Shown in pieces: positions 14,894-31,554 of a stretch of DNA of 64,000 bases. The notes under the pieces are model-generated. The model was not told the DNA's origin, did no database searches, and saw nothing but the letters and a program-made list of their open reading frames with translations. The position numbers and the translations under genes are program-made. Within the stretch, counting starts at the first letter, position 1, and each line of letters starts with the position of its first letter. Origin of the DNA: Microtetraspora sp. NBRC 13810 (GTDB taxonomy: Bacteria; Actinomycetota; Actinomycetes; Streptosporangiales; Streptosporangiaceae); assembly GCF_030268685.1 (NCBI RefSeq), contig NZ_BSRQ01000024.1:62001-126000 (forward strand), given 5' to 3'.

Positions 14894-15793
14894 ATGAATC
14901 CACTTGCCGCTCTCGCCACCGAACAGAGCGACCCCCGGTACAGCCGGATCGACACGCTCCCGACGGAGGAGATCGCCCGGCTGATGAACGCCGCCGACGC
15001 CGCCGTCCCCGCCGCGGTGGCGACCGCCGTACCGGCGATCTCGGCCGCGGTGGACGGCATCGCCGAGCGGCTGACCGCCGGGGGACGGCTGTTCTACGTG
15101 GGCGCGGGCACGTCCGGGCGGCTGGCGGTGCTGGACGCGTCCGAGTGCCCGCCGACCTTCGGCACCGATCCCGACCTCGTACAGGGTGTCATCGCGGGCG
15201 GTGAGGCGGCGCTCGTCCGGTCGGTCGAGGGCGCCGAGGACGACGCGGAGGCGGGCGCCGAGGTCATCAGGGCCAAGGGGATCGGCCCGCTGGACGCCGT
15301 CGTGGGCATCTCGGCCAGCGGCCGGGCGCCGTACGTCGTCGCGGCGGTCGAGGAGGCGGGCCGGCGCGGCGCCCTGACGGCCGGGCTGGCGTGCAACGCG
15401 CACACGCCGCTGGCGGCGGCGGCGGACCACGCCATCGAGGTGATCGTCGGGCCCGAGGTGGTGACCGGATCGACCCGGCTCAAGGCCGGCACCGCCCAGA
15501 AGCTGGTGCTCAACATGATCTCGACGATCACGATGATCCGATGCGGCCGGACATACGGCAACCACATGATCGAGGTGTCCGCGACCAACGCGAAGCTGCT
15601 CGACCGGGCGTCCAGGATCGTCGCCGACATCACCGGCGCCGAGGTCGCGGCGGCCCGCGAGATCCTGGACGCGGGGCACGACGTCAAGACAGCCGTCATG
15701 ATGATCAGGTTCGGCGTCGACGCGGACCGCGCCCGGTCGCTGCTCGCCGCGCGGGGCGGCCGGCTCGACACCGCGCCGCGGCAGGATGCTTGA
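14894..15793 (+). CDS. murQ: N-acetylmuramic acid 6-phosphate etherase
   Basis: 299 residues. Cleaves the D-lactyl ether of MurNAc-6-phosphate to GlcNAc-6-phosphate and lactate, the key cytoplasmic step of MurNAc recycling. SIS fold with the near-invariant YVGAGTSGRLAVLDASECPPTF block containing catalytic Glu84, and the second catalytic Glu in EGAEDD (about Glu115). Also KAGTAQKLVLNMISTITMIRCGRTYGN, characteristic of the family. MurQ needs phosphorylated MurNAc, normally made by a PTS (MurP) or a kinase (AnmK/MurK); neither is in the window, and an ABC importer sits upstream instead. It overlaps the next gene by 8 bases. Confidence 0.96.
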   Translation: MNPLAALATEQSDPRYSRIDTLPTEEIARLMNAADAAVPAAVATAVPAISAAVDGIAERLTAGGRLFYVGAGTSGRLAVLDASECPPTFGTDPDLVQGVIAGGEAALVRSVEGAEDDAEAGAEVIRAKGIGPLDAVVGISASGRAPYVVAAVEEAGRRGALTAGLACNAHTPLAAAADHAIEVIVGPEVVTGSTRLKAGTAQKLVLNMISTITMIRCGRTYGNHMIEVSATNAKLLDRASRIVADITGAEVAAAREILDAGHDVKTAVMMIRFGVDADRARSLLAARGGRLDTAPRQDA

Positions 15794-16808
15794 CGACCTC
15801 CTGCGCGCCGCCGTGCCGGGGGTCGCCTCCGCGGCGGTCGCGCTGATCGCCGTGGACGGCCGCCAGGTCGCCGGGGCCGCGGTGGGGGAGGCGGTGCGCT
15901 TCGCGGACGCGTCCGGGACGCTGCTCCGGGACCGGCCGCCGGCCGCCCTCGACTCCGTCTTCGACCTGGCGTCGATCACCAAGCTGTTCACCACGGTCGT
16001 CCTGCTGTCCCTCGCCGAGGACGACCGCCTGGATCTCGACGAGCCGGTGGCCATGTGGCTGCCCCGGCACTACGGCGACCGGCCGGAGATCACCGTGCGC
16101 CACCTGCTCACCCACACCTCCGGCCTGCCCGCGTCCCGGCGGACCGCGGACTGGGACGCGATCCTGTCCACCCCGGCGTGGCATCCGGCGGGGACCTACG
16201 TCTACTCCGACGTCGGCCTGATCACCGCCGGGCGGGTCGCCGAGATCGCCGGCGACGAACCCCTGGACGTCCTCGTCCGGGAGCGGATCACCGGCCCGCT
16301 CCGCCTGACCGACACCGTCTACCGCCCCGGCCGGGCCCTGCTGCCGCGGACCGTGGCCACCGAGCATCGGCCGGGCCGCCCGGGGACGGGCTGCGTCAGG
16401 GGAACGGTGCACGACGAGACCGCGTACGGCCTGGGCGGCGTCACCGGGCACGCGGGCCTGTTCGGCACGGCCGCCGACCTGCTGCGCTTCGGCGAGGCGC
16501 TGCGGGCCGGCGCGGACGGCGTCCTGTCCCGGCACACGGCTGCCGAGATGACCCGCGACCAGGGGGTGTCCGGCGCCGGGTTCCGCCAGGGGCTCGGGGT
16601 GCGCATCGGGGATCCGGCTGTCGCCGGTCCGCTGACCCGTGGGTTCGGGCATTCGGGCTTCACCGGGACGTCGTTGCTCGTGGACCCCGGCCACCGGCTC
16701 ACCGTCGTACTGCTCACCAACAACGTGCACCCGGTGCGCGGGCGGCCCGGGATCAGGGAACTGCGCCACGCGGTCGCCGCAGAGGCCCTGCGGCTCGCCG
16801 CCGGCTGA
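15786..16808 (+). CDS. Serine hydrolase of the beta-lactamase/PBP4* family
   Basis: 340 residues. Class C beta-lactamase-like fold: nucleophile motif Ser63-Ile-Thr-Lys66 (DLASITKLFT), second motif YVYSDVG (Tyr-Ser-Asp in place of Tyr-Ser-Asn), LLTHTSGLP, and HSGFTGTS as the third motif. No signal peptide is evident, so it appears cytoplasmic. In Bacillus subtilis the murQ cluster also contains a beta-lactamase-family protein (AmiE/YbbE) annotated as a muramyl-alanine amidase, so a role in trimming peptides from imported muropeptides is plausible. It is the last gene of the 8.5-kb operon. Confidence 0.88.
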   Translation: MLDDLLRAAVPGVASAAVALIAVDGRQVAGAAVGEAVRFADASGTLLRDRPPAALDSVFDLASITKLFTTVVLLSLAEDDRLDLDEPVAMWLPRHYGDRPEITVRHLLTHTSGLPASRRTADWDAILSTPAWHPAGTYVYSDVGLITAGRVAEIAGDEPLDVLVRERITGPLRLTDTVYRPGRALLPRTVATEHRPGRPGTGCVRGTVHDETAYGLGGVTGHAGLFGTAADLLRFGEALRAGADGVLSRHTAAEMTRDQGVSGAGFRQGLGVRIGDPAVAGPLTRGFGHSGFTGTSLLVDPGHRLTVVLLTNNVHPVRGRPGIRELRHAVAAEALRLAAG

Positions 16809-16830
16809 CCGGATTCGTCACCCGCAACCC

Positions 16831-16886
16831 GGCCACCCGCCTCCGGCCACCCGCCTCCGGCCACCCGCCTCCGGCCACCCGCCTCC
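16831..16886 (+). repeat. Four exact 14-bp tandem repeats downstream of the muropeptide operon
   Basis: The unit GGCCACCCGCCTCC occurs four times without a mismatch, just after the serine hydrolase stop, and is followed by GGCCGGCCGG and a GC-rich self-complementary stretch. It is non-coding in the gene's frame. It could be a slippage product in a terminator region. From 16887 to the kinase start at 17071 I see only the leader of the next gene. Confidence 0.85.
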
Positions 16887-17070
16887 GGCCGGCCGGCGCC
16901 GACGGACGGCTCCGGCGGCGCCTCACCTCACGCGCCGCGGCCTGACGCCCATGTCAAGGTAATCTCCCGGCCTGTTCCAGGTCCGTTTATGGCTCGCTCA
17001 TTGCCCGGCCGGCTACCGGGCGATTACCGTCAAAGGAGATCTGACCTGGGCTTTTGTAACGAAAGGGCAG

Positions 17071-18627
17071 TTGATTGTGGGGGGCAGACGGGGGTCGCTT
17101 CTCCTTGGCACGCTTCAGGCGCGCACCACGATGGCCGTGACGGGTCTCGCTCTACTCCTCCTCACCGCCATCGGCGTCAGCATCGACGCCCTCATCATCG
17201 ACAGGGCGCAGGCCGCGGTCTACCGGCACTCGGAGCAGGTCGCCGCCAACTGGCTCGCCACCGTCCAGCCCGGCCTGCGGATACCGGGCCCGCCGGACGA
17301 CCCGCTCGTGGACCTCGTCCAGCTCGTCGACTCCCACGGCCGGGTGGTGGCGGCCAGCGCCGCGGCCCGGGGTAAGCCGCCGCTGTCGGAGACGAAACCG
17401 CCGCCGGGCGAGGCGATCCGGGACGTCACCGAGTGCGACCCGCGCGGCGAGTGCGTCATGCTCACCGCCCTGCGGATCTCCCCGCTGGTCTCCCGCGACC
17501 TCTGGCACGGCGAGCCGCACTTCATCTACGCCGGAGCGGCCCAGCGGCCCATCCTGTCCATGTACCGCCTGGAACTGCTCACCGCCGCCGGCGTCCTGCT
17601 GGGCGCGGGCATCGCCGGCTGGCTGAACTGGCGGGCGGCGAAGCGTTCCCTGCGTCCCGTGGCGGCGATCCGCGAGGCGATGGCCGAGATCACCGTGAGC
17701 GACCTGAGCCTGCGGGTGCCCCAGCCGCCCGGCCGCAGCGAGTACGCGATGCTCGCCTGCACCGCCAACCGGACCCTGGCCCGGCTGGAGGAGGCGGTGA
17801 AACAGCAGCGCCGCTTCGCCTCCACCGCCTCGCACGAGCTGAGAACCCCGCTCACCGCCCTGCGCGCCCGGCTGGAGGAGGCCGCCCTCTATCCCGACGA
17901 CGTCGATCCGCACGAGGTCATCCAGGACGGGCTGTCGATCACCGACCGCCTGGAGGCCATCGTGGACGACCTGCTCGTCCTGGCCCGCCTGCGGGCCGGC
18001 GCCTCCACCACGCACACCTCCATCGACCTCGGCGCACTGGTCTCGGAGGAGACGGCGGCCCGGTCCGGCGGCGTCCCCGTCCACGTGCGCGCCGCCCGCG
18101 ACGTGCACGTGCGGGGCAACCGGATCCAGCTCATCCGGGTCCTGGACAACCTGCTGGCCAACGCCCGGCGGCACACCGCCACCCGGGTCGAGGTCACCGT
18201 CGAGCGTGCCGGGGCGCACGCCGTCGTCACGGTAAGCGACGACGGCGACGGCATCGCCCCCGCGGACCGCGAACGCGTCTTCGAACGCTTCGTCCGCCTC
18301 GACGCCGCCCGCCGCCGCGAACCCGCCGGCAGCGGCCTCGGCCTGCCCATCTCCCGCGACATCGCGCACGCCCACTCCGGCACCCTCCGCGTGGAGGACT
18401 CCCCGCAAGGCGCCCGCTTCGTCCTGCGCCTCCCCCTGACCCTCCCCGACCTCACCCTCGACCCCGTCGTGTCCCCCGCCGACCGTCCGGAATCGACCGC
18501 CGAGCCCCGCCCCGCCGACCGTCCGGAACCGCCCCCCGGGCCCCGCCCCGCCGACCGTCCGGAATCGACCCCCGGGCCCCGCCCCGCCGACCGGCAGGAC
18601 TCCGGCCGCGGCGCCCGTACCCCCTGA
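17071..18627 (+). CDS. Sensor histidine kinase, orphan
   Basis: About 518 residues from TTG 17071 (a GTG two codons in is possible). Two membrane helices: residues about 14-38 (MAVTGLALLLLTAIGVSI) and about 168-190 (LELLTAAGVLLGAGIAGWL), enclosing an extracytoplasmic sensor loop with a pair of cysteines (ECDPRGECV). Then HAMP, HisKA with phospho-accepting His in STASHELRTPLTAL, and HATPase motifs DNLLANARRH, VSDDGDGIAP and GSGLGLPI. From about residue 470 a proline-rich tail carries three 12-residue repeats. No response regulator adjoins it, which is unusual for this type, so its partner must be elsewhere. Confidence 0.9.
   Translation: MIVGGRRGSLLLGTLQARTTMAVTGLALLLLTAIGVSIDALIIDRAQAAVYRHSEQVAANWLATVQPGLRIPGPPDDPLVDLVQLVDSHGRVVAASAAARGKPPLSETKPPPGEAIRDVTECDPRGECVMLTALRISPLVSRDLWHGEPHFIYAGAAQRPILSMYRLELLTAAGVLLGAGIAGWLNWRAAKRSLRPVAAIREAMAEITVSDLSLRVPQPPGRSEYAMLACTANRTLARLEEAVKQQRRFASTASHELRTPLTALRARLEEAALYPDDVDPHEVIQDGLSITDRLEAIVDDLLVLARLRAGASTTHTSIDLGALVSEETAARSGGVPVHVRAARDVHVRGNRIQLIRVLDNLLANARRHTATRVEVTVERAGAHAVVTVSDDGDGIAPADRERVFERFVRLDAARRREPAGSGLGLPISRDIAHAHSGTLRVEDSPQGARFVLRLPLTLPDLTLDPVVSPADRPESTAEPRPADRPEPPPGPRPADRPESTPGPRPADRQDSGRGARTP
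18481..18588 (+). repeat. 36-bp tandem repeats coding a DRPESTxxPRPA tail
   Basis: Three successive 36-base units (18481, 18517, 18553) encode DRPESTAEPRPA, DRPEPPPGPRPA and DRPESTPGPRPA, with a degenerate fourth unit after them. They form the extreme C-terminus of the histidine kinase, after the catalytic domain. Confidence 0.85.
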
Positions 18628-18710
18628 TCGGCAGGACGCGGAGCCCCGCATTCGGAACCTGGTTGTGGAGCGTTGGTTGTCGTGCCTGCGTGCTCAGGCG
18701 GCCGGCGTGA

Positions 18711-20345
18711 TCACGCGCGGCTCTTCATGTCGCGGTAGCGGCGGATGAGGGCGTTGGTGGAGGAGTCGTGCGCGAGGTCCGGGTCGGTGTCGCTCTCCAA
18801 CTGGGGGGCGATCCGGCCGGCGAGGACCTTGCCCAGCTCGACGCCCCACTGGTCGAAGGAGTCGACACCCCAGATCGTGCCCTGGGTGAACACGATGTGC
18901 TCGTACAGCGAGACCAGGACGCCGAGCAGGTGCGGGGTGAGGCGGTCGGCGAGCAGGACGTTGGTGGGGCGGTTGCCCTCCATGACCCGGTGCGGGACGA
19001 CCTCCGGGGCGGTGCCCTCGGCCTGCACCTCCTCCCGGGTCCTGCCGAAGGCGAGCGCCTGCGCCTGCGCGAAGACATTGGCCATCAGCAGGTCGTGGTG
19101 GTCGCGCAGCGGGTTGAGGCTGTGGCCGAATCCGATCAGGTCGACCGGGATCAGCCGGGTGCCCTGGTGGATGAGCTGGTAGAAGCTGTGCTGGCCGTTC
19201 GTGCCGGGCTCGCCCCAGTAGACCGGGCCGGTGTCGTAGTCGATCGGGTCGCCGTCCCGGGTGACGTGCTTGCCGTTCGACTCCATGGTGAGCTGCTGGA
19301 GGTAGGCGGGGAAGCGCTTCAGATACTGCTCGTACGGCATGACGCCGACGCTCTGCACGCCGAAGAAGTTGACGTACCACACCGTGAGCAGCCCCATGAT
19401 CACGGGCAGGTTCTCGGCGAGCGGCGCCGTGCGGAAGTGCTCGTCCATCTCGTGGAAGCCGGCCAGCATCTCGTGGAAGTGCTCGGGGCCGATCGCCAGC
19501 ATCGTGGACAGGCCGATCGCGGAGTCCATCGAGTAACGGCCGCCGACCCAGTCCCAGAAGCCGAACATGTTGGCGGTGTCGATACCGAAGTCCGCGACGC
19601 GCTCGGCGTTGGTGGACACCGCGACGAAGTGCCGCGCGACCGCCTCGTCCGTGCCGAGCTGGCCGATGACCCAGTCGCGCGCCGAGTGGGCGTTGGTCAG
19701 TGTCTCCAGGGTCCCGAAGGTCTTGGAGGAGATGATGAACAGCGTCTCGTCGGCGAACAGGTCGTGCGTCGCCTCGGCGAAGTCGGTGGAGTCCACGTTG
19801 GACACGAAGCGGAAGGTCAGGTCGCGCTTGGTGTAGTGGCGCAGCGCCTCGTACGCCATGACCGGGCCGAGGTCGGAACCGCCGATGCCGATGTTGACGA
19901 TGTTCCTGATCGGCTTGCCGGTGTGGCCCTTCCACTCGCCCGAACGCACCCGCCTGGCGAAGCCGGCCATCCGGTCGAGCACCTCGTGGACCTGTGCGAC
20001 GACGTCGACGCCGTCCACCACGAGCGAGCCGCTCTTCGGCATCCGCAGGGCGACGTGCAGCACCGACCTGCCTTCGGAGGTGTTGATCGGCTCACCCCGG
20101 AACATCATGTCCCTGCGCTGCTCAAGCTCGGACTCACCGGCCAGCTCGGTCAGCAGCCGCAACGTCTCGCCGGTGACGCGGTTCTTGGAGTAGTCGAGGT
20201 ACAACCCAGCCGCCTCGGCGGTCATGCGCTCGCCGCGCCCCGGATCCTCGGCGAACAGGTCGCGCAGATGGCGGCCGCCGATCTCGGCGTGATGCTGTTC
20301 GAGCGCCTTCCACGAGGCGCGGTCACGAAGCGGAATGGTCGGCAT
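18711..20345 (-). CDS. pgi: Glucose-6-phosphate isomerase
   Basis: 544 residues from ATG 20345, preceded by GGAGGAATT. Interconverts glucose-6-phosphate and fructose-6-phosphate in the cytoplasm. Signatures: [18 protein letters not shown], the SIS block [30 protein letters not shown], the PGI signature [10 protein letters not shown]-like region and YFHQL-type [19 protein letters not shown]. Catalytic Glu and His are in [12 protein letters not shown], and the C-terminal Lys region is VELGKVLA. Length is normal for bacterial Pgi (about 550). Full-length and single-copy in the window. Confidence 0.97.
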
Positions 20346-20487
20346 CGGTAATTCCTCCGTTAGCTGTCGGAAGGCCGCCAGGCGGGTCCTGCGAGGTGCA
20401 TTGTGTCCCTCCCCAGGAGAACGCACACATGCACCCCGCCGTCTTCCAACATCGCGTCCGCCGTACGGCTTCCGCCGCGCCGCGAGA

Positions 20488-21102
20488 TCAGCGGGGGTCG
20501 ACGATCCGGCCGTGCCGGTAGCCGTGCCGGACCAGGCCGAGCGAACCCGCCACCGCGGCGGCGCCGAGCCCCACCGCCACCCACCGTGACACCTCGAAGA
20601 GCACGGTCTCGCCGTCGAACAGGCTGTTGGGGAAGATGGCGACCGCCATCGCGCCGGCCAGGGCGCAGGCGGCCAGCACGCCGCACACCCTGCCCCCGGA
20701 AAGGGCGACCGCGGCCCGGAAGGACAGCATCACCGCCGGGACGCTCAGGGCGAGGAAGACGACCGTCGAGATGAGGTACGCCGGAGTGACGGGCACGCCG
20801 GGCCTATCGGCCGACAGGCCGTCGAGGAGCAGGGTGAGACCGACGTAGGTCAGCAGGCCGGTGATGAGCGTCCCCGTGAGCTTCTGCAGCCTCGACGGCT
20901 TGCCGGTCTTCACGTCGAGCTGCGCGGACACCTTCGCCGCGTACTCCTTCGGGCTGCCGAACGCCGCCACGGGATCCTCGCCCGTCTCCGCGACGTGCGC
21001 TTCGACCTCGGCGAGCACCTCGCCGACCCGCGCGCCGGAGATGTCCCGCAGTCGCAGCGCCACCCGGAGGTCGTCGCGGTACTTCCTGTCCAAGACGGTC
21101 AT
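20488..21102 (-). CDS. HAAS-domain membrane protein paired with PadR
   Basis: 204 residues from ATG 21102. N-terminal HAAS/DUF1700-like cytoplasmic domain ([37 protein letters not shown] and [15 protein letters not shown], about residues 8-65), then four hydrophobic segments ([51 protein letters not shown] and [17 protein letters not shown]). Proteins of this type are co-encoded with PadR regulators and are thought to signal membrane or antibiotic stress. Its start overlaps the padR stop (ATGA), so they are co-translated. Confidence 0.85.
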
Positions 21103-21446
21103 GCCTTCACTCCTCGCTCCACCACGGCGACCGCGGTCCGCGCGAACGCCGCCCATTCGGGTCCCTGCACCGCGAGCGCCTCCCGGCCCTCGTCGGTCAA
21201 GCTGAAGAACTTCCGCCCCGGTCCGCCCTCTCCCGCCCGCCACTCGGCGCGCAGCAGTCCGTCGGCGGTCAGCCGGTTGAGCAGCGGATAGAGCGTCCCC
21301 GCCTTCATGTCGGGCAACCCCGCCCGGTCCAGCCGCTGAAGCAGCGCGTATCCGTAGTCCTCGCCACTCTCGGCGAGCAGCGCGAGCACCGCGAGATCAA
21401 GCACTCCCCGCAGCCACTGCGTCCTCTTGGCCGTCATGTCTGCCAT
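21099..21446 (-). CDS. PadR family transcriptional regulator
   Basis: 115 residues from ATG 21446 (ATG 21437 also possible). Winged helix: LRGVLDLAVLALLAESGEDYGYALLQRLDRAGLPDMKAGTLYPLLNRLTADGLLRAEWRAGEGGPGRKFFSLTDEGREAL is a textbook PadR domain. Upstream, the minus strand reads CTACTACTATGCG, with TACTAT a plausible -10 element; the region is A/T-richer than its surroundings. Likely autoregulates the padR-HAAS operon. Confidence 0.93.
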   Translation of the reverse strand: MADMTAKRTQWLRGVLDLAVLALLAESGEDYGYALLQRLDRAGLPDMKAGTLYPLLNRLTADGLLRAEWRAGEGGPGRKFFSLTDEGREALAVQGPEWAAFARTAVAVVERGVKA

Positions 21447-21551
21447 GCCATGACGGTAACACCCACTAGTCGGTCTCGCATAGTAGTAGGCGCCATATAG
21501 TTCGCCACGTGCCGGAAGAGCCCTCACGTACCGCGCGGATGGAACCGTCGG

Positions 21552-22466
21552 CTACTTGCCGATGCGAGGGATGACGATGAACTCCTGGGTGTCAGTCAGT
21601 TTTCTGGCGGAACAGCCCGCCTGTGCGTGAAGCACCACTATGGGGGCGTCCATCGTCCCGCCCACGGCGACGCCTTCCAGAACTTTCCCGGCGCAGGGGT
21701 CCTGGCCACTCCTGGGCGTGACAATATGAACACTGATCGGAGTTTTCACATTCATGAGCTTCGGGGTAAGTGTCTGCAGCCACAGGAGGATCAGAACACT
21801 CGCCACGAACGGTATCCCCAACAGCTTCATGCGTCTCGTCAATCGGTGGTAGCGCTGCTGCGTTTCGAAAGAGGCTGCGGCGTCCACGACACACTGGACA
21901 CGTCTGTCCAGGTCCAGGGCGAGATTGGCCAGCGCTGTATTGTCGAGTGGGTCTCTGGGGTCATAGACATGTGTCCCTATACGTACCATTTCTGTTGTTT
22001 GTGGGAGTGTCGAGGCCTGATGGGCTATTGCGTGGTCTCTGCTGAGTTGCCAGATGGCATCCCGTGACATCCCCAACAGGTTGGTGCGGCGCTCGACCAC
22101 CAGGTGGGATACGAGCGCTGACCTGGGTGCTTCCAGGCGGTGATCGGGGAAGTTGCCGTTGTCCAGCCGGTCTAGTTCGGCGAGCTCACCGATACTCCGA
22201 CGTCGCACGGTCAGGACCGCGGCGGCGCTGTAGAGTGTCCACACGACACTTGCCAAGGCTGTCAGTATCGCCAGCAAGCCAACTGCGACGGCCCATTGCC
22301 CGACGTCGCCGAGATCCGCGAAGTTTCGCAACTGAACGCCGGCGACTAATGCGGCCGCCACCGAAGCGCTGGCCGCTACGAGCCACCGTGCGGCTATGCG
22401 CAGGTCGGAAGCGTGGGACACGTCATTCGCCGCCGGTGTGACCTGGTCGGTGACGGGGGCGGTCAT
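21552..22466 (-). CDS. Unrecognised membrane protein with three helices
   Basis: 304 residues from ATG 22466. I do not recognise a named family. Two helices lie near the N-terminus (about residues 22-45 and 56-84), then a cytoplasmic middle of about 130 residues rich in Arg/Asp, a third helix (LLGIPFVASVLILLWLQ, about residues 223-240), and an outside C-terminal tail of about 65 residues with two cysteines that could form a disulfide. Divergent from the Phd-like antitoxin gene; the 125 bases between them carry repeated operator-like sites. GC content is lower than in the flanking genes, as in the whole 21.5-24.8 kb patch. Possible roles include a stress sensor or an effector of a conflict system; neither is shown. 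Confidence 0.7.
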   Translation of the reverse strand: MTAPVTDQVTPAANDVSHASDLRIAARWLVAASASVAAALVAGVQLRNFADLGDVGQWAVAVGLLAILTALASVVWTLYSAAAVLTVRRRSIGELAELDRLDNGNFPDHRLEAPRSALVSHLVVERRTNLLGMSRDAIWQLSRDHAIAHQASTLPQTTEMVRIGTHVYDPRDPLDNTALANLALDLDRRVQCVVDAAASFETQQRYHRLTRRMKLLGIPFVASVLILLWLQTLTPKLMNVKTPISVHIVTPRSGQDPCAGKVLEGVAVGGTMDAPIVVLHAQAGCSARKLTDTQEFIVIPRIGK

Positions 22467-22515
22467 GGCCGGATCCTTGTTTGTTGGGGCATCGGCTCGC
22501 ATAGGAAGGGGGACA

Positions 22516-22544
22516 TGTAGTACAAATGTAGTACACACATTTGT
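22516..22544. promoter_or_regulatory. Operator-like repeats between the membrane protein and the Phd-like gene
   Basis: TGTAGTACA occurs twice (22516-22524 and 22527-22535), exactly 11 bases apart, one DNA turn. Overlapping it is a perfect inverted repeat, ACAAATG (22522-22528) and CATTTGT (22538-22544). The location between divergent starts suits cooperative binding by the Phd-like protein, since Phd antitoxins repress their own promoters. Confidence 0.6.
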
Positions 22545-22591
22545 GGGGATGGCCTGTGACCGCTGAGAAGTCTCAAGTAAGTCGAGGAGAC

Positions 22592-22873
22592 GTGCATATT
22601 TACAAGATGCGTGACCTCAATCAGAGGACGGCCGAAGTAATTCAGGAGATCAACGATTCCGGCCGGCCCGCGATCATCACTCGCCATGGCCAGTTCGTGG
22701 CCCTCATCTCTCCTTTACTCAACAAAGGGCTGGAAGGGGAGTTGATCGCCCGTTTCCTCGATCAGGAGGCCGCTGAGAGTGGGCGGGATGCCGCGTCGGC
22801 TGATACGGAGATCGAGGGGCAGGGCGAAACAACGGAGGACCTGGCAAGGCGCCTCGGTCTTGATTGGCCGTGA
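22592..22873 (+). CDS. Phd/YefM-type antitoxin
   Basis: 93 residues from GTG 22592 (GTG 22556 is an alternative giving 12 more). N-terminal Phd fold: HIYKMRDLNQRTAEVIQEINDSGRPAIITRHGQFVALISPL, a DNA-binding dimer that represses its operon. The C-terminal half (EGELIARFLDQEAAES and acidic DTEIEGQGETTEDLARRLGLDWP) would be the toxin-binding or flexible part. No recognisable PIN, Doc or RelE toxin follows in the same orientation; the next gene converges on it with no base between the stops. It may be a solitary antitoxin, or its partner may be an unrecognised neighbour. Confidence 0.8.
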   Translation: MHIYKMRDLNQRTAEVIQEINDSGRPAIITRHGQFVALISPLLNKGLEGELIARFLDQEAAESGRDAASADTEIEGQGETTEDLARRLGLDWP

Positions 22874-23386
22874 CTATGTGCTGAGCGACGTGAAGTCCGA
22901 GACATGGAGCACGCGCATGACGCGGAATGCCGCGTGTGTGTTCGCGTCGCGGTACTCCCGGTCGGTGGGCGTGCGATACAGCAGATAGTAGTCGGACGCC
23001 TCATCGTGGACGTCCGCGTCTCCTGAGGCCGAAGCAGCAGGTCGCCGCCACGCCAAAACGCCTTCGCGGCCGGGGACCCACCCCTCGTCAGCACATTCCT
23101 TGCGCGGAGGGAAGCAGAGCTCTTCTTCTGCTCTCTTGAAAAGCCTGCCTATGACGGCACGGTCTCCGATCTCTGTGATATCGGCAGATGCCATCCTGTC
23201 CCACAGGACCCTGGACACTTTCCCTCCCCGAGTGGCAAAACCTGTCCTGTATCTGTTCGGCGCCACGTGGGCGCGTCGCGTCTCCTGCCGCAGCGACCTC
23301 CTGAGTCTCCGACTGCTCGCATGCGACACACAGTTGCCGCATCCGCAGATTGACCACTCCGTTGGAATCCGGCGTGCAGCCGTCAC
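22874..23386 (-). CDS. Unknown protein convergent with the Phd-like antitoxin
   Basis: Up to 170 residues from GTG 23386; the true start may be further in, since the first 50 residues are Arg/Cys-rich and poorly convincing. The remainder (from about GGKVSRVLWDRM) reads like a real globular protein: ITEIGDRAVIGRLFKRAEEELCF, GREGVLAWRRPA, DYYLLYRTPTDREYRDANTHAAFRVMRVLHVSDF. No motif is recognised. Its stop is directly adjacent to the antitoxin stop on the other strand. It could be an atypical toxin partner, but orientation argues against the usual operon layout. Confidence 0.5.
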   Translation of the reverse strand: MTAARRIPTEWSICGCGNCVSHASSRRLRRSLRQETRRAHVAPNRYRTGFATRGGKVSRVLWDRMASADITEIGDRAVIGRLFKRAEEELCFPPRKECADEGWVPGREGVLAWRRPAASASGDADVHDEASDYYLLYRTPTDREYRDANTHAAFRVMRVLHVSDFTSLST

Positions 23387-23411
23387 ACTCCGTCAAGAGG
23401 GGGTGTGCAAC

Positions 23412-23426
23412 GTAGCAAACTGCTAC
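23412..23426. promoter_or_regulatory. 15-bp palindrome upstream of the XRE regulator
   Basis: GTAGCA-AAC-TGCTAC, a perfect 6-base inverted repeat with a 3-base spacer, flanked by TGCA on the left (23406-23409) and again on the right (23429-23432). A third half-site, TAGCA, follows at 23443. It lies between the divergent unknown gene and the XRE gene, so it could serve either. The rest of 23387-23625 shows nothing else. Confidence 0.5.
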
Positions 23427-23625
23427 CTTGCATGGCGTATCCTAGCAGAGCGCAACGAAACGCTGTGCAATGTGCCAAGCCGCAGCCTCTGTGGACATCT
23501 CCGCTGGTCCTCGAAGGCGAGGTCCCGAAGGGACCATCAGGTGCGTGGGGTACCGTGGGCGCCTCGCCACCTTGTGCGATGTCAGGTGGCACGCTCATGG
23601 GCGACTACTGAAGGTGAGGCGAAGT

Positions 23626-24492
23626 GTGGTGGATCAACACGGCCCGGTTGTCCAGGGGGCGCTTCTCCGGAGAAAACTTACGGAGCTCCGCCGGCAACGC
23701 CGTATGACCCAGGACGATGTCGCCCGCAGCCTGGAATGGCACACGTCAAAGCTGATCCGGATAGAGGGTGGACGCACCGGGATATCCAAGGTTGACCTGG
23801 ACGCGTTGGGGCGCCTTTACGAAGTGACCGATCCACCCGTCATGGAAGAACTCCACGTGCTCAATCAGGGGGCCCGCGCCAAGGGGTGGTGGAGTGATTT
23901 CAGGAAAGACGTCAGCGACGCTTACCTGACATATATCGGTTACGAGGCCGGTGCCTCTGTCATCAGACAGTTCCAGCCTTTGGCCGTGCCTGGACTGTTG
24001 CAGACCAAAGAATACGCCGAGACCCTTGCGCACGCTGAAACGGATCCAGTCACCCTGGGCCAGTTGGTCAGGCTGCGACTCATGCGTCAGCAGACCCTGA
24101 GGCGGCGACAGGTTCCGCCGTGTGAAACCTTTATTCTCGACGAGGCGGTCATCCGCCGACACGTTGGGATAAGCCGCGATCCCACTATCATGCCGACCCA
24201 GCTCCGCCACATGGTCAGTGTCGCCGAGGGGAGCGAGCGGATCAGTATCAGGGTCGTACCTTTCAAGGCCGGATCGCATGTCGGCATGCTTCGTGGTGCT
24301 TTCACCCTCCTGGAGTTCGACGGGGGGCTGGGTGAGGTGCTGCACCTGGAAAGCAGTGAACTCCACGAGACGGTCACCGGTGAGGATCCACGTATCGCCG
24401 ATGTGCGTGCCGACTTCGAGGCCATTCTGGAGGAGGCATTAAGTCCGTCCGAATCACTTTCGTTCATCAACGACGTTGCAAGAGATATGTGA
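23626..24492 (+). CDS. XRE-family regulator with DUF5753
   Basis: 288 residues from GTG 23626, with AAGGTGAG 8 bases upstream (GTG 23629 also possible). N-terminal helix-turn-helix: ALLRRKLTELRRQRRMTQDDVARSLEWHTSKLIRIEGGRTGISKVDLDALGRLY. Then the actinobacterial DUF5753 domain: FQPLAVPGLLQTKEYAETL, RLMRQQTL, FILDEAVIRRHVG, ISIRVVPFKAGSHVGMLRGAFTLLEF. Proteins of this type regulate adjacent DUF397 genes and often differentiation. Directly upstream is a GTAGCA palindrome. A DUF397 gene follows, the usual partner. Confidence 0.92.
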   Translation: MVDQHGPVVQGALLRRKLTELRRQRRMTQDDVARSLEWHTSKLIRIEGGRTGISKVDLDALGRLYEVTDPPVMEELHVLNQGARAKGWWSDFRKDVSDAYLTYIGYEAGASVIRQFQPLAVPGLLQTKEYAETLAHAETDPVTLGQLVRLRLMRQQTLRRRQVPPCETFILDEAVIRRHVGISRDPTIMPTQLRHMVSVAEGSERISIRVVPFKAGSHVGMLRGAFTLLEFDGGLGEVLHLESSELHETVTGEDPRIADVRADFEAILEEALSPSESLSFINDVARDM

Positions 24493-24610
24493 TGAAGCCC
24501 CGCCCTCTCGCGTCGGCGTGCCGGCTACACGGCTTGCTGCCAATTTGAGTGCCCTGTACGATCTTGACCTCCCGGGCTATTCTCGATACCGACACTGGGA
24601 GGACGGCTTG

Positions 24611-24820
24611 ATGACTCAGGGGCCTGGCGATCCGCCTGAGCTGATCTGGCGTAAGAGCTCCGCGAGCACGACGGGGGAGTGTGTGGAGGTTGCGTTCGGC
24701 CCTGAATCGGCTTATGTGCGTGACTCTAACTCGCCCGACGAGGCCGTTCTTGAGTTCAGTCGATCAGACTGGGTCGCCTTTGTCGTAGGCGTGCGAAGAG
24801 GGGAATTCGACTGGCCGTGA
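24611..24820 (+). CDS. DUF397 protein, partner of the XRE regulator
   Basis: 69 residues from ATG 24611. Family motif: ELIWRKSSASTTGECVEVAFGPESAYVRDSNSPDEAVLEFSRSDWVAFVVGVRRGEFD. DUF397 proteins (such as BldB/WhiJ-associated ones in Streptomyces) are small partners of DUF5753 XRE proteins, forming a pair resembling a toxin-antitoxin unit. An in-frame extension upstream to 24476 overlaps the XRE gene but has no family resemblance. Confidence 0.9.
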   Translation: MTQGPGDPPELIWRKSSASTTGECVEVAFGPESAYVRDSNSPDEAVLEFSRSDWVAFVVGVRRGEFDWP

Positions 24821-25134
24821 GTCATTCGATCTAACGCAGGGGTGCTATTGGCCCCGGGCATATGCGTGCGGAGACGCCCACAATGCCTGGCAGTTTGTCC
24901 CGTACAAACACACCCCGCGTAGTGTCGAATTCGCGACATGGTCGGCAGGTGTAGCCTCAAACTCCGGGGGCGCCGAGACCGACCACGCGTCGTCATTCGC
25001 TTCGACGATTTCGACTGCCTCGGCTCACCCGCGGGATCCGCCGCATGGTCGCGGACCGCGAATCGCCGCCATCGCGAGTATGCCACCCGGCTGTCGAGGG
25101 GCGGTGATCGGCCGGTGTGCGGAGTCGTCGCGGT
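24821..25134. other. Intergenic region with a small inverted repeat
   Basis: 314 bases between the convergent DUF397 and histidine kinase genes. The only structure I see is TGTCG (24923-24927) and CGACA (24934-24938), a 5-base hairpin with a 6-base loop. No gene or strong terminator is apparent. Confidence 0.4.
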
Positions 25135-26193
25135 TCAGCGGCGCAGGGTGAGGTGGAAGGCGCAGCCGTCGCCGGTGGGGCCGGGGGAGGTGACGGTGAG
25201 GGTGCCGCCGTGGGCCGTCGCGACCTGGGTGGCGATGGGGAGGCCGAGGCCGGTGCCCGGGGTGTCGGGGCGGCCTCGCCAGAAGCGCTGGAAGACGCGC
25301 TCCTGATCGGCCAGGGGGATGCCGGGGCCGTGGTCGGTCACGGTGACGGCCGCTTCGGACGCGGTCTCCGTGACGGCGACCTCGACCGCCGAGCCGGCCG
25401 GCGCGTACCTGATCGCGTTGTCCACCAGGTTGGCGACGGCCCGCCGTACGGTCGGTTCGTCGATCGGGCACGTGGCGGCCGGGGGGGCGGTGAGGGACAG
25501 GGTGATGGCCTTCGCGGTCGCGGGCGGGCGGGCGTCGTCCAGGACGGCGCGCACGATGGCCACCAGGTCGGCCGGGCGGCGGTCGATCGTACGGGCCCGG
25601 CCGCGGGCCTCGACGAGGAGGTCGTCGATCGTCGTCTGGAGGCGCTCGGCCGCCTTCTTCGAGCGGGCCAGCCCCTGGCGGTAGACCTCGACGGTGGGGG
25701 ACGGATGGGCGAGGAGGACGTCGGTGTTCGCCACGAGGACCGACAGCGGGGTGCGCAGTTCGTGGCTGGTCTCCTCGATGAGCCGCCGCTGGGTCTCCGC
25801 GGCGCGTTCCAGACGGTCGAGCATCGCGTCGAAGCTCGCCGCGAGTGCCACCACCTCGGCCGGGCCGTCGCCGAGGCCGGTGCGCAGGCCGAGATCGGTG
25901 CCCTCGACGTCCTCGGCCACCCTGCGCACCCGGTCGATCGGGCGTACGGCCCGGCCGGCCCACCACCAGGCCAGCCCGGCGGCGGCGGGGGCGAGCGCCA
26001 GGATCGTCCAGGTGGCCCAGGGGGACCGCTGTACGGAGGTGCTCCGCACGGCCGGCCGGTCGCCGATCGCGTGCGCGGTCGTCTCGCTGTCGGTGGCCAG
26101 GATGACGCCGAACAGCAGCAAGGCGGGGACGTAGATCGCGAGGAACCCGAGCGCGGCCAGTTGTACGCGCAGCGACCGCCAGACGTCGGTCAC
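25135..26193 (-). CDS. Sensor histidine kinase
   Basis: 352 residues from GTG 26193, overlapping the regulator stop (GTGA). Two membrane helices (about residues 11-32, LAALGFLAIYVPALLLFGVIL, and about 55-75) frame only about 25 outside residues, so it likely senses the membrane or a partner protein. Then HAMP, HisKA (ETSHELRTPLSVL), HATPase (NLVDNAIRYAP, VTDHGPGIPL, GTGLGLPI). It works with the response regulator encoded just before it. A serine-hydrolase lipoprotein is first in the same operon. Confidence 0.92.
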   Translation of the reverse strand: MTDVWRSLRVQLAALGFLAIYVPALLLFGVILATDSETTAHAIGDRPAVRSTSVQRSPWATWTILALAPAAAGLAWWWAGRAVRPIDRVRRVAEDVEGTDLGLRTGLGDGPAEVVALAASFDAMLDRLERAAETQRRLIEETSHELRTPLSVLVANTDVLLAHPSPTVEVYRQGLARSKKAAERLQTTIDDLLVEARGRARTIDRRPADLVAIVRAVLDDARPPATAKAITLSLTAPPAATCPIDEPTVRRAVANLVDNAIRYAPAGSAVEVAVTETASEAAVTVTDHGPGIPLADQERVFQRFWRGRPDTPGTGLGLPIATQVATAHGGTLTVTSPGPTGDGCAFHLTLRR

Positions 26194-26861
26194 GACGGGT
26201 CCGTCAGCCGGTAGCCGGCGTTGGTGACGGTGACGATGAGCGCCGGGTCGCCGATCTTCCTGCGCAGCCTGCTGAGGATGACCCGGACAGACGAGGTGAA
26301 CGGGTTGGCGTGCGCGTCCCACACGTGTTCGAGCAGCTCTTCGGCCGACAGCACCTGCCCGGGGTGATGCATGAAGTACCGCAGCAACGAGAACTCCCTG
26401 GCGGTGAGATCGAGTGGAGTGCCGGACCGGCAGGCTCGGCGGGTGGCGAGGTCGAGCGTCAGTTCGCCGACGCGCAGGGTCGAACCGTGCTCGCCCTCCC
26501 GCCGGGCCAGGGCGCGGAGCCGGGCGACCAGCTCCGCGAAGTGGAACGGTTTGACGAGATAGTCGTCGGCCCCGGCGTCGAGTCCGGCGACCCGGTCGGC
26601 GACGGCGTCACGGGCGGTCAGGACGAGCGACCGCCGGGGCCGGCGCAGACCGGGGTCCGCGGCGAGCCGGCGGACGAGGTCCAGCCCGTCCCCGTCGGGC
26701 AACCCCAGGTCGAAGCAGGCGACGTCGTAGTCGGTGGTCCTGAGCAGTTCCTCGGCGTCGGCGCAGGTGCCGGCGACGTCGACCGCGTAGGACTCGTTGC
26801 GCAGGCCGAGGGCGACGACCTCCGCGAGGTCCGGGTCGTCCTCCAGGAGTAAGACGCGCAC
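26190..26861 (-). CDS. OmpR-family response regulator
   Basis: 223 residues from GTG 26861. Receiver domain: MRVLLLEDDPDLAEV acidic pair, phospho-acceptor Asp in VACFDLGLPDGDG (about Asp51), the conserved Thr in SLVLTARDAV and Lys in YLVKPF. DNA-binding winged helix from about residue 125: DLATRRACRSGTPLDLTAREFSLLRYFMHHPGQVLSAEELLEHVW, VRVILSRLRRKIG. It starts 7 bases after the stop of the split serine hydrolase, so the three genes are one transcript. Confidence 0.94.
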   Translation of the reverse strand: MRVLLLEDDPDLAEVVALGLRNESYAVDVAGTCADAEELLRTTDYDVACFDLGLPDGDGLDLVRRLAADPGLRRPRRSLVLTARDAVADRVAGLDAGADDYLVKPFHFAELVARLRALARREGEHGSTLRVGELTLDLATRRACRSGTPLDLTAREFSLLRYFMHHPGQVLSAEELLEHVWDAHANPFTSSVRVILSRLRRKIGDPALIVTVTNAGYRLTDPS

Positions 26862-26868
26862 GGCGGGG

Positions 26869-27447
26869 TCACCCGGCCGACCGGGCGCTCGTCTCCCCGG
26901 CCGGTCCCGAGACGGTGACCCGGCCTTCGCCGAAGCGCAACGTCACCTCGGGCCCGACGCCGGCCGGGTCGTCCGGCCGGTGGCTCCCGCCGCCCGAGGC
27001 GACGAGCGGCAGCGCCGGGGGGCGGGTCGGTATCTCGGCCGCCTGGACGCCGCCCTGCTCGTTGAGCGAGTACCACGCGAGGATCGACCGTTTCCGGGTG
27101 GTGACGGTGACGTAGGTGCGCGTCTCGCCTGCGCTCGTGGTCCCGCCGAGGGTGACGCCGGTGATCGGGCCGAACCCGGCCTCGATGCCCGCGCGCTCCC
27201 TGTGCCCCTCGTCGGTCTGCCCGCCGAGCAGTGCGAGCACGCGCCGCTCGTGCGCGCGGAGCCCGGCGGCCGGAACGTCCGCGCGCGGCGGGAACAGCGC
27301 CGCGACGGCGTCGGCGCCGCTCGCGGAGATCACGGGCCGGTCGTCGGTCACGGTCACGTCGAACGAGCCTCCCGTGTCCAGTTCGTACCTCCCGACGATA
27401 GCGGCCGCGTCGGCCGGATCGGTGCCGTCGGCCGGGACCTTCGGCAC
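26869..27447 (-). pseudogene. Detached C-terminal domain of the frameshifted serine hydrolase
   Basis: 192 residues if read from the GTG at 27447, which has no ribosome site. The sequence (AAAIVGRYELDTGGSFDVTVTDDRPVISASG) is a lipocalin-like C-terminal domain of the kind fused to beta-lactamase-family serine hydrolases. In its own frame it is open upstream past 27480 and reads AGPAIAAGEPPPVPKVPADG, a normal domain linker that continues the hydrolase if one base is added or lost near 27465-27485. So it is most simply the second half of the gene at 27458-28543. Confidence 0.7.
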
Positions 27448-27457
27448 GGGTGGCGGC

Positions 27458-28543
27458 TCACCGGCGGCGATGGCCGGGCCCGCCTGCCAGGAGGTCGCCG
27501 GCGGACACCTTGGGCCCGTTCGACGCGATCGCGATCACCTGTTCCCGCTCGGGCAGCCAGGCGACGGCGGCGTTGTGGCCGACGTCGCCGCCCCCGCCCG
27601 AGGCGGTGAGGAACGGCATACCGTGGACCGACCTGTCGTACGCCACCCAGCCAGGCGTCTCCGACCGGCCCCCGCCCAGGTCGTGACCGGGGGTGCCGAT
27701 GACCCTGGTCGACGCCGGCGACACGACCCGGCCGGAGAAGAGCGCGTACGTCCAGGCCGCCAGGTCCCGGGTGGTCATGGCGAGGCCGCCGTTGCCGTCG
27801 AGCGCCCAGTGCGGGCCCGCGAACCCGCCCGTCCGTGCTGTTTCACCGTCCGCGAGGTAGCCGACGGCCCGGGGGCCGGGCGCGGCGGGCTCGCCGTTCC
27901 AGAACCCGCCCGCGACGCCACCGCCGGGAAGCCGCAACGTCGCCGACGCCGTGTACTCCCGGTACCCGCTGCCCGACACCTCGTCCACGATGAGCGCCAG
28001 CAGCGTGTACCCGGCATTCGAATACACGTACCCCGTGCCCGGCCGGAAGGCCGGCTTCAGCCCGCCGATGGCCGCCACGGCGGAGTCCCGGTCGAGCGGT
28101 TGGTGGTCGCGGCCGTGTGACCCGTTGAGCCCGCTGGTGTGCAGCAGAAGCTGCCGGATCGTCGCCTCCGCGACCGGGCCCTTCAGATCCGGCAGCAGGC
28201 TGCCCGCCCGATCGTCGATGGACAGCTTCCCCGCGTCGGCCAGCGCGAAGATCGAGGCCGCGGTGAACGCCTTGGTGACCGACCCGATGCCGAACACCGT
28301 CTCGGGTGTCACCGGGACGCCGCCGGCCCGGTCGGCCCAGCCGTAACCGGCCAGGCAGCCGAACTCCCCGCGCGTCGAGACGGCGATCGACCCGCTGAAA
28401 CCGGCCTTCTCCCACTCGCGGAGCGCCTCGTCGATCCCGGCGTCACAGCGGGCACCGGCCGTCCGTCCGTCGGGAACACCGGGCCCGGCCCCGCACGCCG
28501 CCACGAGAGCCAGCACGGCCAGTACCGCGAAAGATCTGTTCAT
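27458..28543 (-). CDS. Serine hydrolase lipoprotein, 3' end altered by a frameshift
   Basis: 361 residues from ATG 28543. Lipoprotein signal MNRSFAVLAVLALVAAC with lipidated Cys17. Beta-lactamase/PBP-like catalytic domain: Ser88-Val-Thr-Lys91 (FGIGSVTKAFT), Tyr174-Ser-Asn176 (YVYSNAGYT), LLLHTSGLNG and GGGDVGHNAA as the third motif region. It ends abruptly in GGPGHRRR, a frame-shifted tail; the missing C-terminal domain follows in another frame. Whether this is a real mutation or an assembly error cannot be told from sequence. The catalytic domain itself is whole. First gene of an operon with the response regulator and histidine kinase. Confidence 0.85.
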   Translation of the reverse strand: MNRSFAVLAVLALVAACGAGPGVPDGRTAGARCDAGIDEALREWEKAGFSGSIAVSTRGEFGCLAGYGWADRAGGVPVTPETVFGIGSVTKAFTAASIFALADAGKLSIDDRAGSLLPDLKGPVAEATIRQLLLHTSGLNGSHGRDHQPLDRDSAVAAIGGLKPAFRPGTGYVYSNAGYTLLALIVDEVSGSGYREYTASATLRLPGGGVAGGFWNGEPAAPGPRAVGYLADGETARTGGFAGPHWALDGNGGLAMTTRDLAAWTYALFSGRVVSPASTRVIGTPGHDLGGGRSETPGWVAYDRSVHGMPFLTASGGGGDVGHNAAVAWLPEREQVIAIASNGPKVSAGDLLAGGPGHRRR

Positions 28544-28760
28544 GCGGCCGAAGGTACGAACCCGGCTGCGAACGTGATGTGAACGAGGCGACGCGCCGGA
28601 CCACGACCCTCGGCCCCCGCTATCCATCCGCAATCGGTCTTCCATTCCCGCCCGGATACTGAGCGGAGATCGTGGCCGCCGAACGCGGCGCGGTGACGCT
28701 TATCCGGGGGGTAAGCCGACGAGACCCATCGCCCGGCTCACGCCGACGGAGAGGAACGAC

Positions 28761-29507
28761 ATGTCCGAGCAGCCACTCACCAGCACATCCGTCTACCGCC
28801 GGCAGGTGCCCGAGACGGACTTCAAGAAGTGGGCCACCGCCGCCCGGCTCGAACTCCAGACCTACATCAGGCAGTTACCCGACGTCCCCTCCAAGCGAGG
28901 CCCCCTGGAGGACATCTCCAAGAAGCTGTCGCTCCTGGAATACGCCATGGTCGGGAGCAAGTCCGAGAGCACGGCACGGGAGGAGTTCGTCTCCTGGCTG
29001 GAGGAGTACGACACCGGCGGCTGGGCGCGCTTCGCGGACGAGAGGGCCCGGCTGGAGACGGCACGCAAGCAGGAGAAGGAGGAGAAGGACCGGCGTTCCA
29101 CGATCGCCGGCGCGCCCGCCGAGGCCATCAAACTGACCAAGAAGTACGGCGCCGGCGCCGGCGTCAAGGTCGGCACCGTGATCGCCGTCCTCGTCCATGC
29201 CAAGACGGGAAAGCTCTGGTCGGGCACCAGCGGCGAATACACCACCAGCGAGAAGCACCCGCTCATGAAGACGATCCTCACCGGCGTGGTCCAGGTCGAG
29301 GACTGGCCGGTGGCCGCATGCGGCGAGGTGGCCGCCATGAACGCCTACCTGCACGACTCCGGCACGACCGACCTGTCCCAGCTCCCCTCGGGCACCCTCT
29401 TCTTCCACGCCCAGACCTGGAACGCCAAGGACGGCAAATGGCAGGCACGCGCCGCCTGCAAGAACTGCGACCAGTGGCTGAAGAAGATCGGCGCCGGCCG
29501 CGTCTGA
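28761..29507 (+). CDS. Deaminase-superfamily-like protein (CxE and CxxC zinc motifs)
   Basis: 248 residues, ATG 28761 with GAGAGGAAC before it. The N-terminal half is helical and charged (LELQTYIRQL, KKLSLLEYAMVG, ARLETARKQEKEEKDRR coil). From about residue 132 it resembles a cytidine-deaminase fold: VIAVLVHAKTGKLWSGTSGEY strand pair, WPVAACGEVAAMNAYLHD giving the C-x-E zinc/catalytic motif (Cys and Glu near residues 192-194), and ARAACKNCDQWL giving CxxC. This CxE/CxxC pattern is that of the YwqJ/SCP1.201-type deaminases found in bacterial toxins. There is no secretion tag or obvious immunity gene, so it could be a toxin-like domain, an intracellular effector or a domesticated enzyme. Assignment is by motif only. 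Confidence 0.65.
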   Translation: MSEQPLTSTSVYRRQVPETDFKKWATAARLELQTYIRQLPDVPSKRGPLEDISKKLSLLEYAMVGSKSESTAREEFVSWLEEYDTGGWARFADERARLETARKQEKEEKDRRSTIAGAPAEAIKLTKKYGAGAGVKVGTVIAVLVHAKTGKLWSGTSGEYTTSEKHPLMKTILTGVVQVEDWPVAACGEVAAMNAYLHDSGTTDLSQLPSGTLFFHAQTWNAKDGKWQARAACKNCDQWLKKIGAGRV

Positions 29508-29579
29508 ACCACCACCCATCAGCCGCGCGACCACGCCGGGTGGACGGCGGGGCTGTGCGCGGCGGTGTTGGGGTGTCGG

Positions 29580-29759
29580 TCAGATGAGTGTGCCCGATCT
29601 AGTGTCGACCCGGCCGCCCTTGAGTACGAGGTTCCTGGGCGGGCGGGTGACAACCGCTTCGGCCGGGGTCTGGGCGTCGAGGGTGACGAGGTCGGCGGGG
29701 GCGCCTTCGGGCAGGCCGTAGGACGGGTGCGCGAGGGCGGTGGCGCCGCCGATCGTCAC
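29580..29759 (-). pseudogene. C-terminal remnant of an amidohydrolase (cytosine-deaminase type)
   Basis: About 59 codons ending with TGA at 29582-29580 read VTIGGATALAHPSYGLPEGAPADLV, TLDAQTPAEAVVTRPPRNLVLKGGRV. This is the last strand-rich segment of metal-dependent amidohydrolases (the GxPADLVxLDA, AVxxRPPRxxVxxxGRVV pattern). No start, metal-binding His residues or upstream barrel remain, so it is a remnant. The rest of 29508-29878 holds nothing else that I recognise apart from the leader of the ABC gene. Confidence 0.75.
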
Positions 29760-29878
29760 CCCTGACTCGCCCGCGCACAGGTCCCACCCGGAGAGTAGGA
29801 CCAGGCTCCCAGAGGCGTCGTCCGAGAACAGTTCCCAGGCATGATGAGGACGGCCGCCCGCGGCGGGACGCTTGGATC

Positions 29879-31506: not shown

Positions 31507-31554
31507 GCAGCCGGCCTCCTGCCACACAAGAGCTCCAGCGGCGCTGTGATCGCC

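Follow-up and report, generated by a model that had tools for sequence, protein, structure and literature searches.

A Phd-family antitoxin gene with a convergent, probable RelE/ParE-fold toxin gene and a divergent membrane-protein gene in a putative mobile island of Microtetraspora sp. NBRC 13810 and its relatives

Introduction

The locus described here raises a simple question: what is the partner of an antitoxin gene that appears to stand without a toxin? The gene lies in what we call the window, the whole 64,000-nucleotide stretch of Microtetraspora sp. NBRC 13810 that was analysed (contig NZ_BSRQ01000024.1, positions 62,001 to 126,000 of the forward strand; coordinates below count from its first letter). 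A preliminary description of this DNA had placed there a Phd-like antitoxin without a recognised toxin, next to a divergent membrane protein and an unknown convergent gene, and had suggested that one of these two neighbours may be a new toxin type. We favor, with a probability of roughly 0.72, a mobile toxin-antitoxin (TA) island that consists of Phd, a convergent RelE/ParE-fold toxin transcribed separately from it, and a membrane gene under Phd control. The features on which this reading draws are as follows.

21552..22466, minus strand: membrane protein, 304 aa, conserved divergent from Phd, without a Pfam or NCBIfam match
22516..22535, no strand: candidate operator of two TGTAGTACA palindromes with a spacing of 11 bp, in the gap from which the membrane gene and Phd diverge
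22556..22873, plus strand: Phd/YefM-family antitoxin (Pfam PF02604), conserved core from 22592
22874..23218, minus strand: probable RelE/ParE-fold toxin, 114 aa (AlphaFold model, PDB fold matches, adjacency to Phd)
23406..23449, no strand: conserved element with the palindrome GTAGCA-AAC-TGCTAC, between the divergent toxin and XRE genes
23626..24492, plus strand: XRE-family HTH regulator with DUF5753 (Pfam)
24611..24820, plus strand: DUF397 small protein (Pfam PF04149)

Results

The identification of the antitoxin was confirmed by Pfam, the window protein matching PF02604 with E=1.7e-7 and 31.3 bits, above the curated cut-off of 29.8. Its relatives in Microbispora rosea (33.2) and in genome G665, from another family of the class (31.9), likewise score above this cut-off, while those in G181 (29.0) and G076 (24.2) fall under it; a PDB sequence search with the Phd profile returned no match at E up to 0.1. 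The best start of the gene is GTG 22556, which lies 36 nt upstream of a common GTG/ATG/GTC position at 22592. A start codon matching GTG 22556 is present in 7 of 8 related loci, and the eighth, that of Acrocarpospora, has an ATG nearby.

The distribution of the three genes was measured in 341 genomes of the window's family. The convergent protein gave 8 strong matches among 10, Phd gave 8 strong matches and one weak one (G076), and of 16 membrane-protein matches, 7 were strong, with E values no higher than 4.5e-101. Strong toxin and strong Phd matches fall in identical genomes (G000, G026, G116, G179, G181, G205, G234 and G235), and at this level the two never occur apart. Seven of these 8 also have a strong membrane-gene match; the contig of G181 stops ~90 nt past the Phd core start and does not reach the membrane gene. 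All 8 share the same order, namely the membrane gene on the minus strand where visible, Phd on the plus strand and the convergent gene on the minus strand, with 0, 0, 0, 0, 3, 4, 17 and 147 nt between the stop codons of Phd and the toxin, and Phd identity is 63-80% across the 7 other genomes. Named loci in the group are those of Microbispora rosea, Nonomuraea montanisoli, Acrocarpospora corrugata, Planobispora siamensis and P. takensis. The co-occurrence check proposed in the preliminary description thus returned a positive answer for both neighbours, the toxin being conserved beside Phd in 8 of 8 genomes and the membrane gene in 7 of 7 in which it would be visible. PADLOC reported nothing convincing.

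The convergent gene had been read as 22874-23386, with a stop touching that of Phd. The stops are indeed adjacent, but the extent was wrong: the conserved start is not 23386 but GTG 23218, preceded by a GGGAGGGAA-like ribosome site that is also conserved, which leaves a gene for 114 aa (22874-23218). An AlphaFold model of its product, built from 6 sequences and of moderate confidence (pLDDT 68.6), runs strand-helix-helix-strands. When this model was compared with the PDB using Foldseek, the best 15 matches were all RelE/ParE/YafQ/YoeB/HigB-group toxins or RelE/YoeB-like proteins (E 1.9e-3 to 8.7e-2), the best structures being those of RelE, HP0894, YafQ, ParE1, YoeB and HigB2; the top match was 2khe (RelE; E=1.9e-3, probability 1.00), and none reached E < 0.001. 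VIA-align ranked PrpT first (Z 8.3, rmsd 2.8, 83 aligned), with Tth RelE (Z 7.7) and Mtb ParE1 (Z 7.4) among the further rows and RelE and ParE proteins throughout the list, Z values of 7-8 being, according to the tool's own warning, typical of models without a clear match. By sequence, the window protein matched 0 Pfam families and stayed under the cut-off of the ParE_toxin profile, one of 7 members of the convergent group gave a weak ParE_toxin match (E=0.012), and a PDB sequence search with the convergent protein returned no toxin. A search of viral contigs with the convergent toxin also gave no match. Two weak toxin matches, L031 and L032, were set aside as unrelated, since in the translations they overlap with other reading frames and genes.

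Taken together, the model and its structural neighbours make a good but not certain case for a RelE/ParE toxin fold, and the convergent gene is most likely the missing toxin of Phd. The preliminary description was right in so far as this Phd is not an orphan. The suggestion of a new toxin type survives in part: one neighbour is probably a toxin, but AlphaFold, Foldseek and VIA-align point to a divergent RelE/ParE fold and not to a new one. The membrane protein was not preferred as the toxin partner because it is the convergent protein that has the predicted toxin fold and that is encoded co-directionally with Phd in distant relatives.

These relatives came from the family search and from class-wide searches, each of a sample of 394 genomes. 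In G076 (L043), a distant membrane protein and a distant Phd accompany a toxin homologue co-directional with Phd; in G665 (L054), the membrane gene is on the minus strand, and Phd and the toxin are on the plus strand. Scored against a profile built from the convergent group only, each of these two toxins beat all 300 shuffles. A Streptomyces canus plasmid carries a membrane gene, Phd and a 145-aa gene in a similar arrangement, and 27 of 300 shuffles scored as high as this third gene with the convergent-group profile. Profile-profile comparison of the convergent group with the proteins of these three (G076, G665 and S. canus) gave 86% over 77 columns for the toxin and a probability of 99.5% over 50 columns for Phd, and the membrane gene is retained beside the distant Phd genes at about 25-31% identity. 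From a reading of its translations, the L043 contig also encodes ParA-like and TrwC-like proteins; plasmid searches with the G076 and G665 toxins found no match. Because G076 and G665 both keep the divergent membrane gene with the toxin gene following Phd in the usual orientation, the toxin gene has probably been inverted: with these two systems as the only outgroups, the co-directional order would be the older one, and a single inversion would have occurred on the branch leading to the window's group.

Other peculiarities were seen in these distant loci. An extra, partly hydrophobic ORF (L043:8124-8921, minus strand) lies between the divergent membrane gene and Phd in G076 and was not seen in the other systems. 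The Phd gene of the S. canus plasmid (NZ_CP108710.1, L056:3215-3880) encodes two nearly identical tandem Phd domains, the product of an in-frame duplication. At a short contig end in G046 (L055:2771-3327), a toxin-like reading frame belonging to this family is broken into two frames and apparently decayed, and this match was left out of the system count.

We also considered whether Phd could be a transcription factor for the membrane gene only, the convergent protein being a decayed or repurposed RelE-fold protein without toxicity. Being convergent, the two genes are not transcribed together, the toxin is the fastest diverging of the five block proteins (45-55% identity to the window copy in the five loci compared, versus 56-91% for the others, DUF397 being the slowest at 71-91%), and what we take to be the typical RelE catalytic residues are not evidently kept. 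However, the reading frame is intact in all 8 genomes, 22 residues, including FPPR and WxR, are invariant in seven aligned proteins, Phd and the toxin are never separated at the strong-match level, and the pairs in G076 and G665 are co-directional. We consider a non-toxic convergent protein distinctly improbable, and return to the convergent gene as the likely toxin of Phd.

The intergenic region between Phd and the membrane gene contains the direct repeats, 11 bases apart, that had been noted previously. They are copies of ATGTAGTACA at 22515-22524 and 22526-22535 (11 bp start to start), and each includes a TGTAGTACA copy (22516-22524 and 22527-22535) that is palindromic around its central base. 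The TGTAGTACA pair is kept in all 8 related loci. Across the 8.97-Mb genome it has a single site even when 3 mismatches are tolerated, and 0 of 500 single-base shuffles of the intergenic region, which preserve base composition but not dinucleotides, reached the observed score. Relative to the TGTAGTACA reference, 16-18 of 18 bases are kept by the best spacing-11 pair in all 8 convergent loci, and 16 of 18 by that of G076, with 0 of 500 shuffles reaching these scores. In G665, 14 of 18 bases are kept at spacing 11 (0 of 500 shuffles), tied with spacings 12 and 13; spacing 11 scores best in 10 of 11 loci, G665 being this tie. The S. canus operator is weak, with 12 of 18 bases and 6 of 500 shuffles reaching that score. 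Its uniqueness in the genome, the shuffles and its conservation in 8 of 8 related loci argue that the paired TGTAGTACA is not a product of chance. Phd may bind the palindromes at 22516-22535. The overlapping inverted repeat ACAAATGT/ACATTTGT that had been described alongside them is present, but the relatives do not keep it; it is therefore probably fortuitous, and was dropped as part of the operator. The association of the membrane gene with the operator, in contrast, is upheld by the conservation of both beside Phd (operator 8 of 8, membrane gene 7 of 7 visible).

Similarity between the window and Nonomuraea montanisoli extends from 21545 to 24820 by blastn, and that between the window and G179 from 21568 to 24818. 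The block is wider than the preliminary description had it, and includes the XRE-DUF5753/DUF397 pair. DNA flanking the block (within window 15001-32000) matched none of the ten other loci by blastn. The GC content of the block is 60.7%, compared with 68.7% for the window, and the block, carried by 8 of 341 family genomes, has the look of a transferable unit. So sparse a distribution might also be expected if the genes were fortuitous neighbours on a variable genomic patch, without any functional link. The same order, orientation and operator recur in 8 loci of several genera, however, and similarity to two relatives ends at the block edges, which makes such an accident scarcely credible next to a mobile island. 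Elsewhere in the window, the C-terminal half of an ORF at 28761-29507 (plus strand; CGEVAAMNAYL...ACKNCDQWL) resembles what we take to be a cytidine-deaminase-type zinc motif, possibly of a YwqJ-like deaminase.

The pair at the far end of the block matches DUF5753 (E=4.9e-43) and HTH_31 (E=4.2e-11) in 23626-24492 and PF04149 (E=2e-17) in 24611-24820, and thus has the composition by which XRE-DUF397 pairs are recognised in Pfam terms, an XRE HTH and DUF5753 gene followed by a DUF397 gene. Six of the 8 loci carry it, in divergent orientation to the toxin, and the two of Planobispora lack it. The element at 23406-23449 is kept in the 6 loci with the XRE gene and was not seen in the 2 Planobispora loci that lack it; its palindrome core varies among the six, and its TTGCATGnnnTATCCTAGCAGA part is unique in its own genome within 2 mismatches. 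Judging from this arrangement, the toxin and XRE genes may share a promoter region controlled by the XRE protein. Since 2 of the 8 islands are without the pair, such control of the toxin cannot be essential. A promoter and terminator scan found no consensus promoter and no terminator.

We turn finally to the membrane gene, which was described as divergent from Phd and is found so (21552-22466, minus strand) in 7 of 7 loci where the contig extends that far. No Pfam or NCBIfam family matches its product. The predicted helices fit three membrane spans, a cytoplasmic helical middle and a C-terminal beta-rich part, a topology that we propose from sequence. The model of the protein is of low confidence (pLDDT 60), and a fold search with it gave low-confidence long-helix matches only, which were not used. 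Searches of genome contigs and of plasmids with the window membrane protein found no match, and neither did a phage search with its S. canus counterpart. Weak homologues make up 9 of the 16 family matches. That in G076 belongs to a genuine system, and profiles show neither Phd nor toxin close to the remaining 8, marginal scores apart. One distant relative (L013:3-1316) adjoins a CHAT-domain gene, another (L016:2228-3055) is near a gene for a McrC-like protein, a component of McrBC, and one distant member gave a sub-threshold match to the TRADD-N-associated two-TM domain (E=0.007).

The CHAT-domain and McrC-like neighbours are a faint hint at a conflict role, in which the membrane protein would be a second, membrane-acting effector silenced by Phd. 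One antitoxin would then govern two effectors, holding a cytoplasmic RelE-like toxin by binding and the membrane effector by repression. The TRADD-N-associated match, the Phd operator shared by the gene in all convergent loci that show it, and the retention of the gene at the low identities given above are consistent with such an effector. On the other hand, further distant members lie near ordinary genes, the protein model is too poor for fold inference, and the C-terminal part, which is probably outside the membrane and whose two cysteines (C258 and C285) are invariant in all 9 aligned sequences including three distant relatives, fits a sensor equally well. On balance, we regard a second effector as rather unlikely.

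The same cysteine pair, together with a conserved cytoplasmic ERRxDLLGxSRDAI stretch, strict co-conservation with Phd and the common operator, would instead suit an envelope sensor, or an anchor or immunity partner, that modulates toxin or antitoxin activity as a third, regulatory component. No known sensor domain was found in the protein with Pfam or NCBIfam, and we view such a role as a tentative possibility, at less than even odds.

Discussion

We propose that the Phd/YefM-type antitoxin neutralises the convergently encoded RelE/ParE-fold protein. Phd, alone or together with the toxin, would bind 22516-22535 and repress its own transcription along with that of the divergent membrane gene. 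The toxin gene would have lost its operon coupling to the antitoxin and would be expressed from its own promoter, which in 6 of 8 islands stands back to back with the XRE-DUF5753/DUF397 pair and is probably controlled by it. Degradation of Phd would free the toxin, and the membrane protein and new antitoxin would be derepressed together. Any overlap between the 3' transcript ends of the tail-to-tail genes may also play a role.

The island is built of parts of known kinds. Like YefM-YoeB and Axe-Txe, it combines a Phd/YefM antitoxin with a RelE-superfamily toxin fold, predicted in our case, and a paired palindromic operator before the antitoxin gene. In those systems, according to PMC7730913 and PMC4803016, antitoxin and toxin share one operon, and the palindromes, with a TGTACA core, are 12 bp apart centre to centre. 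The window differs in its convergent toxin, its dedicated divergent membrane protein and its odd-centred TGTAGTACA-like palindromes, found at 11 bp in place of two TGTACA-core palindromes at 12 bp. The predicted toxin fold is shared with RelBE and ParDE, whereas the antitoxin is of the Phd type, the toxin sequence is beneath recognition by Pfam ParE_toxin, and the convergent group is marked by a PTDxEYR stretch and by an acidic insertion that lies between two core strands. A co-directional two-gene operon is usual in type II TA systems, without being strictly required; the genes are convergent in 8 of 8 loci here, and co-directional in G076 and G665.

Three-component TA loci, such as PasABC and PaaR2-PaaA2-ParE2, resemble the island in that a third gene is added to a toxin-antitoxin pair. 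PaaR2-PaaA2-ParE2 is a TA pair with such an added gene, and the third genes of both loci encode soluble proteins within the same operon, in contrast to the divergent membrane protein and common operator of the window. PasABC is presented as a TA pair with an added third gene in PMC4803016.

The window's HTH_31 plus DUF5753 and DUF397 pair resembles those of the Scr1/Scr2 type, from which it differs in being divergently linked to a RelE-fold toxin gene. XRE-DUF397 pairs have been proposed as TA systems in their own right, as PMC2701414 has it. According to PMC10364602, overexpressing 14 DUF397 proteins caused no toxicity in S. coelicolor, and a regulatory role of the window pair therefore fits better. 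We recognised no described type II system that is convergent, tail-to-tail, opposite-strand or membrane-linked in the literature searched, which lay mostly outside the subscription journals; PMC1626106, met in that search, concerns the sdp operons. The arrangement was thus not found described in that literature.

A bolder version of the proposal would make the island a conflict module with two arms, in which Phd neutralises a RelE-fold toxin whose gene left its operon by inversion and came under an XRE/DUF397 switch, a membrane effector is kept silent through the Phd operator, and further, antisense control arises from the tail-to-tail genes. If so, loss of Phd would release the cytoplasmic and membrane effectors together. 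We think this combination improbable, and keep to the island with a Phd-controlled membrane gene and a separately transcribed toxin.

At least one large type II survey was, by PMC2701414, built on co-directed neighbouring genes, so that it would not see a toxin read opposite to its antitoxin. Toxin partners so oriented may likewise exist for other "orphan" Phd genes. If confirmed, the separate transcription of toxin and antitoxin would test the need for operon coupling in a stable module, the divergent membrane protein would represent a new kind of third component, and XRE-DUF397 pairs, whose standing as TA systems is disputed, would gain a concrete candidate target.
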